24,750 nt of DNA from a virus. The position numbers and the translations under genes were made by a program. The stretch spans positions 1-24,750 of the IMG/VR virus record IMGVR_UViG_3300025769_000796. One strand, given 5' to 3'. The notes beneath the pieces are model-generated. The model had not been told where the DNA came from, did not search any database, and saw only the letters and a program-made list of their open reading frames with translations. Shown here piece after piece: positions 15,475 through 21,084 of the stretch; the first letter of the stretch is position 1, and each line of letters opens with the position of its first letter.

Positions 15475-15783
15475 ATGAACTTTTGGACGAACGAAACTCG
15501 TGATCCTAAAGACGATCACCACGAAGATGAACAAATCTCGCCAGCGGGCGAGGTCGTGCTTAGGCGAAGAGAGTGCCTGCACGATTGGCAAGAGATAAGC
15601 GACAGCACTTGCTTGTGCCGACTCTGCGGCGAAGCAAAGCGGTGGGATGATATGCCCGCCAAGAACGATACTGTGATGATGAAGGCGTATGGCATCACCT
15701 TCATGGTTCCTATGAACTGCCTGCCTAAACAGTTTCAGCAGACGATCCAGACCCGTCGCAAGATGCAAGAGGAGGTCAAATGA
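15475..15783 (+). CDS. Small Cys/His protein, possible zinc-binding
   Basis: A 102-residue protein translated from the repeated 'GAGAGGAACTGA' leader. It is acidic and His-rich at the N-terminus ('DPKDDHHEDEQ') and has a central 'RRECLHDWQEI...STCLCRLCGEA' cluster (C, H, C-x-C-x2-C) able to bind a metal. The C-terminal third is hydrophobic then helical ('GITFMVPMNCLPKQFQQTIQ'). No family was recognised. It ends in GGAGG-tcaa-ATGA, so its own last codons carry the ribosome binding site for the methyltransferase locus. Confidence 0.55.
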   Translation: MNFWTNETRDPKDDHHEDEQISPAGEVVLRRRECLHDWQEISDSTCLCRLCGEAKRWDDMPAKNDTVMMKAYGITFMVPMNCLPKQFQQTIQTRRKMQEEVK

Positions 15784-16664
15784 CATGCGCCATCTTTCCC
15801 TCTGCGCTGGTATCGGAGGCATCGACCTCGGACTGCACCGATGCATCGAAGGCATGCGAACAGTGGCTATGGTGGAACGGGAAGCCTTCTGTGTATCAAT
15901 CTTGGAGCAAAAGATGCGAAAAGGTGAGTTGGATGCAGCACCTATCTACCCGGATCTTCACAGGTTCCCTTGGTCAAAGTATCGAGGATGCGTGGATATT
16001 GTCTCTGGCGGATTCCCCTGCCAACCATTCAGTCTCAGTGGTAGCCGTAAAGCGACCAAAGACCCTAGACACCTCTGGCCCGTCATCACTTCAGGGCTTG
16101 CTGTTCTCAAACCTAGGGCTTGCTTCTTCGAGAATGTTGAGGGGATCACTTCAGCAGAATCACCGGGACACCATTCCGTACTCCACAATGTCTTGTGCGA
16201 CTTGGAACGATTGGGTTTTAGATCGACGGCTGGCTGCTTCACAGCGAGCGAAACTGGCGCACCACACCAACGGACGCGATGGTTCATACTTGGCGTTTCC
16301 AACCCCGACTGCTTCGATGGCAAACAACATGGGACATATAGCAACCTTGAGGAAAGCAGTGTTCAGGGGAGCATTATCAATGAAAACAGCAAACGCTTTT
16401 TTGAACTTCAATATCTTGAAAGAGAAGGCACTTCTGCCAAGAATCAAGTCTCATCAGGACAAAGATGGCCTGCATCTGCCAACAGACAGCAATACGAATG
16501 GGAACCGCCGCACACAGTTGAATGCAGCGTGGGTGGACACTCTGATGGGCTTCCCGATGAACTGGACGATGCAAGAGAACACAAAGCAAGAAACAGAGCC
16601 CTCGGCAACGCAGTCGTGCCAGCAGTCGCAGAGGTCGCATTCTCAACCTTATGGTACGAACTAA
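15780..16664 (+). CDS. Overlapping +1-frame reading frame inside the methyltransferase gene
   Basis: A 294-codon frame starting at ATG 15780, 4 nt after the same GGAGG and in an ATGA overlap with the upstream stop. The N-terminal half has no recognisable motif. From about codon 150 it reads 'ATWNDWVLDRRLAASQRAK', 'GSYLAFPTPTASM' (16281-16319) and 'TQLNAAWVDTLMGFPMNWT' (ending 16568). From memory these match the 'WPTPTA...LNPxWVEWLMGFPxGWT' C-terminus of many phage methyltransferases or methyltransferase-linked proteins. The DNA encoding 'DGLPDELDD' in the main frame encodes 'MGFPMNWTM' here. It could be translated from ATG 15780, from an internal start, or as a +1 frameshift product, or it may be a relic. 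Expression is unproven. Confidence 0.45.
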   Translation: MTCAIFPSALVSEASTSDCTDASKACEQWLWWNGKPSVYQSWSKRCEKVSWMQHLSTRIFTGSLGQSIEDAWILSLADSPANHSVSVVAVKRPKTLDTSGPSSLQGLLFSNLGLASSRMLRGSLQQNHRDTIPYSTMSCATWNDWVLDRRLAASQRAKLAHHTNGRDGSYLAFPTPTASMANNMGHIATLRKAVFRGALSMKTANAFLNFNILKEKALLPRIKSHQDKDGLHLPTDSNTNGNRRTQLNAAWVDTLMGFPMNWTMQENTKQETEPSATQSCQQSQRSHSQPYGTN

Positions 16665-16681
16665 ACCCAGAGAGGAACTGA
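15785..16681 (+). CDS. C5-cytosine DNA methyltransferase
   Basis: A 298-residue enzyme that transfers a methyl group from S-adenosylmethionine to carbon 5 of cytosine in DNA. The motifs are in order: I 'LCAGIGGIDLGL' (6-17), IV 'GGFPCQPFS' with catalytic Cys79, VI 'FENVEG' (115-120), VIII 'QRTRW' (162-166) and X 'RALGNAVVPAVAE' (271-283). 'WPASANRQQYEWEPPHTVE' and 'SDGLPDELDD' precede motif X, as in phage enzymes. The target recognition region is short. ATG 15785 is 9 nt after GGAGG. No restriction enzyme gene is adjacent, so it is probably protective or regulatory. The gene is AT-richer (16290-16480) than neighbours, hinting at acquisition. A second open frame runs through it. Confidence 0.9.
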   Translation: MRHLSLCAGIGGIDLGLHRCIEGMRTVAMVEREAFCVSILEQKMRKGELDAAPIYPDLHRFPWSKYRGCVDIVSGGFPCQPFSLSGSRKATKDPRHLWPVITSGLAVLKPRACFFENVEGITSAESPGHHSVLHNVLCDLERLGFRSTAGCFTASETGAPHQRTRWFILGVSNPDCFDGKQHGTYSNLEESSVQGSIINENSKRFFELQYLEREGTSAKNQVSSGQRWPASANRQQYEWEPPHTVECSVGGHSDGLPDELDDAREHKARNRALGNAVVPAVAEVAFSTLWYELNPERN

Positions 16682-20083: not shown

Positions 20084-20448
20084 CCAACTCAAGACAAAAG
20101 GGCAAGCGCGGCGAACTCGAAGCAGCCAAGGCGTGGGAGGATGCCACAGGGCTGAGCGTCAGACGCACGGCACAAGTAGACGGCAAGTTGTCTTCTGACC
20201 TCACTGGCGTTGAGGGCTTGCACCTTGAGGTCAAACGACGCGCCCGGATTGCTTCGCTTGACTTCTTGCTTCAGGCTGAGACAGATGCAGCCGATGAACA
20301 TCAAAGCCACGGCGGCGTGCCGGTGGTACTCATGCGTCAAGACAACGACCGCAATTGGGCTGTGATGGTTCGGTTGGAGCGTCTTGCTGATCTGGTATCC
20401 GTTCTTGCAGGGCAAGCATGCAATCAGAACTCTTCCCCGAACTCATAA
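20080..20448 (+). CDS. PDDEXK nuclease, Holliday-junction-resolvase-like
   Basis: A 122-residue protein with the small archaeal-type resolvase pattern: 'KGKRGELEAAKAWEDATG' (an early Glu on the first helix), 'SSDLTGVEGLHLEVKRRAR' giving the catalytic Asp and the E-x-K of the PDDEXK core, then a helix with 'HGGVPVVLMRQDNDRNWAVM', where the resolvase core strands continue. Such enzymes cut branched DNA during recombination and before packaging. It fits with the ERF and SSB-like proteins encoded upstream. The last ~30 nt overlap the next gene. Confidence 0.7.
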   Translation: MTNSRQKGKRGELEAAKAWEDATGLSVRRTAQVDGKLSSDLTGVEGLHLEVKRRARIASLDFLLQAETDAADEHQSHGGVPVVLMRQDNDRNWAVMVRLERLADLVSVLAGQACNQNSSPNS

Positions 20449-20621
20449 CCCCCGCCAGCATCATCTTTGGTGTTGTCTTTGGAGCAGGCCGCGTCAAGGC
20501 TGCGATCGACGAACTGCGGCGTGCCGTGGATCGACTCGAAGCGGCGGTGCAACTCATCGAGAACCGTACGCACGAAGTCGAGCAGCGCGTTGCCCGGTTG
20601 GAGGGCAAGACCGGATCATGA
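20418..20621 (+). CDS. Small membrane/coiled-coil protein, possible lysis accessory
   Basis: A 67-residue protein overlapping the nuclease gene by 31 nt. A weakly hydrophobic segment ('LITPASIIFGVVFGAG', ~9-24) is followed by a long amphipathic coiled coil ('AAIDELRRAVDRLEAAVQLI', then 'ENRTHEVEQRVARLEGK'). A short membrane anchor plus coiled coil resembles i-spanin or haemolysin-XhlA-like lysis accessory proteins. It overlaps the next membrane gene by ATGA. The role is inferred from form and context. Confidence 0.5.
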   Translation: MQSELFPELITPASIIFGVVFGAGRVKAAIDELRRAVDRLEAAVQLIENRTHEVEQRVARLEGKTGS

Positions 20622-21061
20622 GGTACTTGCTGCCCATCTTGATGCTTGGTTGTCAGTCCACTCAGGGGGGTGGACTGTCTTTCCCTTTTGCCAAAGCGAT
20701 AGCGGAGACACCAAGCACGGAAGTGGCGCACGCTCTCGATCCGTTGAAGTTCAGCGGCACGCTTCTGATACTGACGGGCGGCGGTCTGCTGTTCGTGACC
20801 AGAGGCAACCGGGGTTGGATTCCAGTAGCCTTGGGCATCGCACTCACAGTTCTCATGGCGATTCTGGCGAAGGTGCTGGAGTCGCAGATATTCGTATTCA
20901 CACTGATAGCCGGACTCTGCGTGACAGCGGGAGTCGCGGCCCTGAACTTCAAGGAGATCAGAACATGGATCAAGTTATTTCCTTCCTCGCCATCGCTTCG
21001 GGGTACATCATCGCCTTTGCCGTCGGCGCGTGGATCGGGCGACCGCTCCTCGGACTCTTGA
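20618..21061 (+). CDS. Multi-span membrane (lipo)protein, possible holin or spanin
   Basis: A 147-residue product from ATG 20618 (ATGA overlap). It opens 'MRYLLPILMLGCQSTQGGG', a plausible lipoprotein signal with Cys12. Three hydrophobic segments follow: 'FSGTLLILTGGGLLFVT', 'WIPVALGIALTVLMAILAKV' and 'IFVFTLIAGLCVTAGVAALN'. The last ~30 residues ('FPSSPSLRGTSSPLPSARGS') are Ser/Pro-rich and overlap a separate small gene in another frame. Membrane proteins in series next to coiled-coil genes suggest a holin/spanin unit. The function is not proven. Confidence 0.55.
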   Translation: MRYLLPILMLGCQSTQGGGLSFPFAKAIAETPSTEVAHALDPLKFSGTLLILTGGGLLFVTRGNRGWIPVALGIALTVLMAILAKVLESQIFVFTLIAGLCVTAGVAALNFKEIRTWIKLFPSSPSLRGTSSPLPSARGSGDRSSDS

Positions 21062-21084
21062 GCGACCGCATCTTCAAGAAGTGA
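20965..21084 (+). CDS. 39-residue single-span membrane protein nested in the preceding gene
   Basis: ATG 20965 is preceded by AAGGAGA (20951-20957), one of the best ribosome binding sites here, lying inside the preceding membrane gene. The product 'MDQVISFLAIASGYIIAFAV' continues 'GAWIGRPLLGLLSDRIFKK': one transmembrane helix, periplasm-compatible N-terminus, basic cytoplasmic tail. It overlaps the preceding gene by 97 nt in a different frame. Size and form suit a mini-holin, antiholin or phage membrane accessory protein. It ends 1 nt before the LamG gene's ATG. Confidence 0.6.
   Translation: MDQVISFLAIASGYIIAFAVGAWIGRPLLGLLSDRIFKK

Follow-up and report, generated by a model that had tools for sequence, protein, structure and literature searches.

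Two overlapping reading frames of a viral locus very probably encode the two chains of a single cytosine-C5 DNA methyltransferase

M.BsuMI (YdiO/YdiP) is a split C5 methyltransferase like M.AquI, with a catalytic chain and a second chain that carries the target-recognition region (TRD) and motifs IX and X. In M.EcoHK31I, and likewise in M.EaeI, the gene for the small chain lies within that for the large chain, in a different frame. In M.AquI the enzyme is divided after motif VIII: one chain is catalytic, and the small one has the TRD and motifs IX and X (PMC3404938). M.EcoHK31I is a two-polypeptide C5 methyltransferase whose large chain holds motifs I-VIII and X and the predicted TRD, while motif IX is found only in the small chain (PMC3404938), and it is a precedent for a kind of system of which the original prediction on the locus studied here knew no described example. 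In phages, the families phrog_363 and phrog_1008, both named DNA methyltransferase, are entered separately, and the entries are silent on being two frames of one locus. In Paenibacillus phage Sitara, gp60 is annotated as the 'g59 internal gene' of the methyltransferase gp59. The two-polypeptide plan is already known from M.EcoHK31I, and the overlap has been annotated singly before (Sitara gp60, a YdiP-like protein and a protein of phage JY39). A search of the open subset of the literature found no paper on the overlap reported below and no description of the arrangement as general.

The locus was analyzed in an IMG/VR virus record of 24,750 bases (the window, meaning the whole stretch of DNA studied), which also carries head, Erf-like recombination, ssDNA-binding and primosomal genes. 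Two genes on the plus strand overlap for about 880 nt, and in relatives the overlap reaches about 1,500 nt. The +1-frame gene, called beta, spans 15780-16664 (294 aa, ATG start, TAA stop), and the frame-0 gene, called alpha, spans 15785-16681 (298 aa). Both open reading frames had been predicted at these positions, together with one Shine-Dalgarno-like GGAGG (15771-15775, plus strand) lying 4 nt before ATG 15780 and 9 nt before ATG 15785, and all were confirmed in the sequence; the GGAGG would serve both starts. The third frame contains 15 stops at the locus. We consider it very likely, from the sequence comparisons described below, that two polypeptides, a catalytic alpha and a recognition beta, are encoded here in two frames and together form a single cytosine-C5 DNA methyltransferase.

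Alpha matched Pfam PF00145 (E 8.5e-34), only at positions 1-238 of the 324 of the profile, and phrog_363 (E 2.7e-50), and a PDB profile search gave a match to M.HhaI across motifs I-VIII. The PF00145 motifs I, IV (PCQ), VI (ENV), VIII and X were all located in alpha, motif I being conserved in alignment A1. On the plus strand these are the AdoMet-binding motif I LSLCAGIGG (15794-15820), motif IV GGFPCQPFS with the catalytic Cys (16007-16033), where the +1 frame reads DSPANHS, motif VI FENVEG (16127-16144), motif VIII GAPHQRTRWFILG (16256-16294) and motif X ALGNAVVP (16598-16621). However, a single-chain enzyme has motif IX and the TRD in the same chain, and here motif IX is in beta. The main frame had been described as a complete methyltransferase through motif X; motif X is indeed present, but motif IX is absent from it and sits in the +1 frame.

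The TRD region assigned to beta, between motifs VIII and IX, covers 16310-16531 of the plus strand in the +1 frame, where frame 0 holds only a linker of low conservation before motif X. Motif IX of beta, TQLNAAWVDTLMGFPMNWT (16512-16568, plus strand), also given as LNAAWVDTLMGFPMNWT in the +1 frame of the window, was assigned through a profile built on the IX-X segments of relatives, which matched the plant C5 methyltransferase DRM2 (4onj; E 6.7e-6); in this alignment LNPxxVEWLMGxP corresponds to motif IX and LGN to motif X. The same bases read DGLPDELDD in frame 0 (16544-16570) and MGFPMNWTM in the +1 frame (16545-16571). This dual reading had been noted correctly, but its interpretation as two homologous-looking alternative C-termini was not supported: DGLPDELDD is what the bases of motif IX give when read in frame 0, and frame 0 has motif X as its true C-terminus.

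Beta matched phrog_1008 (E 2.3e-15), and no match above threshold was found in sequence searches of Pfam, NCBIfam, PADLOC and the PDB, the last giving no solved structure. The beta profile scored 76 bits in the window, in comparison with a maximum of 53 and a mean of 30 in 300 synonymous shuffles; this profile was trained on dual-coded loci, so the shuffled controls score too. Two AlphaFold runs on beta alone gave models of low confidence (pLDDT about 59, pTM about 0.24), which are therefore uninformative on the fold of the predicted TRD.

By its described motif layout, M.EcoHK31I (YGGCCR) is like the locus in the window, with motifs I-VIII and X in the large chain and motif IX in the small one. 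However, its TRD is predicted in the large chain, whereas the corresponding region of the window is constrained in the frame of beta only. M.EcoHK31I is also a restriction-modification enzyme, whereas no restriction gene was recognised beside the methyltransferase in the window. M.AquI and M.BsuMI share with the window the split into a catalytic chain and a chain with the TRD and motif IX. The small chain of M.AquI includes motif X, which the window has in alpha, and PMC3404938 describes no full-length two-frame overlap for M.AquI, whereas that of the window is nearly complete. The two products of the window match both phage families, alpha phrog_363 and beta phrog_1008. Sitara has the same +1 arrangement, but its internal start lies about 180 nt into alpha and gp60 carries no assigned function.

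We compared the openness of the +1 frame with chance. The +1 run of the window was 292 codons, and the mean after shuffling of frame-0 synonymous codons was 138 (p = 0.0005). Antisense open reading frames of 288-346 codons are also present in the window, so length alone is not decisive, and homology and the substitution pattern settle the matter. Among 75 loci the longest +1 run had a median of 258 codons versus 110 expected by synonymous shuffling, and p<0.05 was reached in 93% of the loci for the +1 frame versus 1.3% for the third frame. Most of these 75 loci had been picked via the +1 motif, and for this reason a second set was picked on alpha alone. In that set the beta profile matched in the +1 frame in 80 of 80 viral loci and in all 78 assessable bacterial loci, the bacterial ones including Verrucomicrobia, Bacteroidota, alphaproteobacteria, actinobacteria and Firmicutes. 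Four canonical controls (Bsp6I, NgoI and Eco29kI types, and one from Acetobacter), which are restriction-type methyltransferases or their relatives, gave no beta match and no excess openness; an obvious frame-0 motif IX (LTPRE/LTPRM) was seen in two of the four. A Carnobacterium plasmid dcm gene (L310, 1432-2925) has its own frame-0 motif IX, LTPMECWRLQAFP, yet shows a weak beta match and a +1 run of 165 codons, and is possibly a relic or an intermediate.

The substitution pattern was examined by codon position. Between the window and locus L006, which is 90% identical, the substitutions at frame-0 codon positions 1, 2 and 3 numbered 6, 3 and 19 across motifs I-VIII, versus 38, 11 and 11 across 16310-16531, where amino acid identity was 77% in the +1 frame and 47% in frame 0. 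The shift in pattern between the two segments was significant (chi-square, p 2.6e-5). When 14 pairs were pooled, the counts were 297, 158 and 679 for motifs I-VIII and 231, 111 and 97 for the TRD (chi-square, p 4e-40, the pairs being not independent). Strong frame-0 constraint ends at motif VIII, after which constraint switches from frame 0 to the +1 frame. From this pattern by segment it follows that alpha is constrained in its catalytic half and beta in its TRD region. In the segment of motifs IX and X, in which both frames count, 4 of 150 sites differed, and among third positions 1 of 50 did; for genes nearby, among them Erf and DUF1376, the value was about 0.18. The original prediction had named scattered +1 stops in homologous loci, a +1 product without database matches and a lack of constraint as grounds for giving up dual coding; instead, the +1 frame stays open, phrog_1008 and relatives match its product, and constraint is seen in both frames.

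Stop avoidance upstream of motif IV was measured in loci grouped by alpha similarity rank. In the loci nearest the window, a single stop was present in the +1 frame where 61.3 were expected; the third frame had 135 versus 135.3. The more distant loci had 55 stops in the +1 frame versus 52.7 expected, which is no avoidance, and have internal beta starts; such starts do occur in the other subfamily, as in Sitara. An internal start at ATG 15933 was considered for the window and dropped for its subfamily, in which the +1 frame is held open back to the start of alpha. The start codons of beta and alpha are paired a few nucleotides apart in related loci too, and L153 and L223 have ATGACATG in common with the window. 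These data support independent initiation of beta, probably from a ribosome-binding site shared with alpha, and we infer that beta is translated. The proposal of dual coding with two proteins from one ribosome-binding site is supported.

The pair recurs in phages and bacteria. Phage C75C1 has the same pair, with alpha 51% identical and beta 35% identical across 172 residues, and with a +1 frame that stays open over about 450 codons and ends in LNPNWVEQLMGLPTGWTAL. Among cultured phages, mycobacteriophage SG4 of M. smegmatis (gp64) and Lc-Nu (ORF40) also have the arrangement. When viral contigs were scanned for DNA that encodes WVEWLMGFP, 80 loci were found; nearly all of them have a methyltransferase in the frame preceding that of the motif, the +1 frame being open and the third closed. 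The correspondences between the frames are regular: GGFPCQPFS in frame 0 corresponds to DSPANHS in the +1 frame, and EPxVGRVxDGxP to LNPxWVEWLMGFP. In sampled genomes of one phylum, phrog_1008 was present in 14 of 299.

Annotators usually record just one of the two overlapping frames. Proteins of Klebsiella, Salmonella and Komagataeibacter phages were considered as stand-alone beta and rejected, for alpha is present in the -1 frame with SPPCQPFS as motif IV. These loci (L136, L139, L140 and L142) form a divergent dual-coding subfamily annotated as 'C-specific methylase' or 'Mte8-like'. In Synechococcus phage Ssp-JY39 (L305, 969-2084), beta is annotated as a hypothetical protein and the overlapping methyltransferase frame is unannotated; this locus was rejected as a natural one-frame fusion, the annotated reading frame being that of beta. 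In Mycobacterium phage Llama (L306, 801-1560), where frame 0 looks interrupted, the locus is annotated as the consecutive DNA methylases gp74 and gp75. One member, from a Paenibacillus larvae phage, carries a YdiP-like annotation.

The division of motifs between the chains was surveyed in 158 loci. Motif IX is in beta at most of them, and the strict motif IX pattern misses about a dozen loci with a degenerate motif IX visible by eye. At four actinobacterial loci (L274, L280, L287 and L291), motif IX is in alpha and beta ends earlier; at these loci the division point of the enzyme has moved. The apparent presence of motif IX in both chains of L175 and L217 comes from loose-pattern matches in alpha. 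Where alpha stops after motif VIII, beta has motif IX and usually motif X; at L075, L078, L162 and L208, alpha stops just after motif VIII and beta bears both. Since alpha ends just past motif VIII in L075 and L078, the TRD and motifs IX and X can come from beta only in these two loci, and their beta chains, the two tested, match phrog_1008 at about 1e-30. In a few of the 158 loci (L179, L192), the motif search did not find motif X in either intact reading frame. At L043 (1972-3601), the beta reading frame enters, near motif IX, the frame of alpha with motif X, while motif IX stays behind in a different frame. This layout would be explained by an indel of one base, whether genuine or an assembly error.

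Alternatively, programmed +1 ribosomal frameshifting past motif VIII could fuse the catalytic half of alpha to the TRD and motif IX of beta in a single chain. The pieces are colinear in order, and one shift would give motifs I-X in one chain at L075, L078, L162 and L208. In the window, however, beta ends before motif X, and a second shift would be required; most loci have no frame-0 stop at the junction, and the start codons of beta lie close to those of alpha. In addition, a frameshift at that point would create no need for a +1 frame open from the start of alpha, so the openness upstream of any such shift in window-type loci (1 stop versus 61 expected) speaks against it. This mechanism is unlikely, and the specificity-swapping frameshift put forward originally is not needed, since beta has its own start.

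It is quite improbable that beta is a real overlapping protein acting as a regulator or an anti-restriction factor and not as an enzyme subunit. Such a role would agree with the lack of a Pfam, NCBIfam or PADLOC annotation for beta itself, but alpha lacks motif IX wherever beta has it, motif IX is in alpha at the four actinobacterial loci, and it moves together with motif X when alpha is short. Beta is called a subunit mainly because the pieces of both chains sum to one enzyme. The open +1 frame as a by-product of codon usage and a conserved frame-0 protein is extremely unlikely: long chance reading frames exist on the antisense strand and some beta signal survives shuffling, but the shuffle tests with their clean third-frame control, the switch of substitutions to the +1 frame, and the end of frame 0 before the beta TRD in L075 and L078 all argue against it.

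Both frames exist, are selected in complementary segments, recur in all surveyed alpha relatives and share out the motifs of the enzyme. For the two-polypeptide enzyme, we propose that ribosomes at one Shine-Dalgarno site would initiate at ATG 15780 for beta or ATG 15785 for alpha. Alpha would supply the AdoMet-binding and catalytic motifs I-VIII, with the catalytic Cys, followed by an unconserved stretch and motif X. Beta would supply the TRD and motif IX after an N-terminal stretch overlapping the catalytic half of alpha; it would recognise the target, and its motif IX would complete the fold. The two chains would assemble into one active enzyme, which would methylate a specific sequence in the phage genome and in this way most likely protect it from restriction.

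We also think it probable that phage and prophage C5 methyltransferases of a common kind, found in several bacterial phyla and annotated as single-chain, are obligate heterodimers whose catalytic and recognition parts are interleaved in two frames, with the dispensable half of each protein lying over the essential half of the other. If so, the recognition half would be missing from many DNA cytosine methyltransferase genes whose annotation presents them as complete; that half would be the one now entered under hypothetical protein or second methyltransferase, or left without annotation, and expression of the annotated gene alone could fail or mislead. The overlap would then be among the longer conserved same-strand gene overlaps, occurring in a wide range of hosts, and would offer a natural case for testing how two frames share selection between them.

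Elsewhere in the window, two overlapping sense reading frames of 225 and 205 aa (20384-21061 and 20467-21084) had no family match, and the first of them has a membrane-like stretch.
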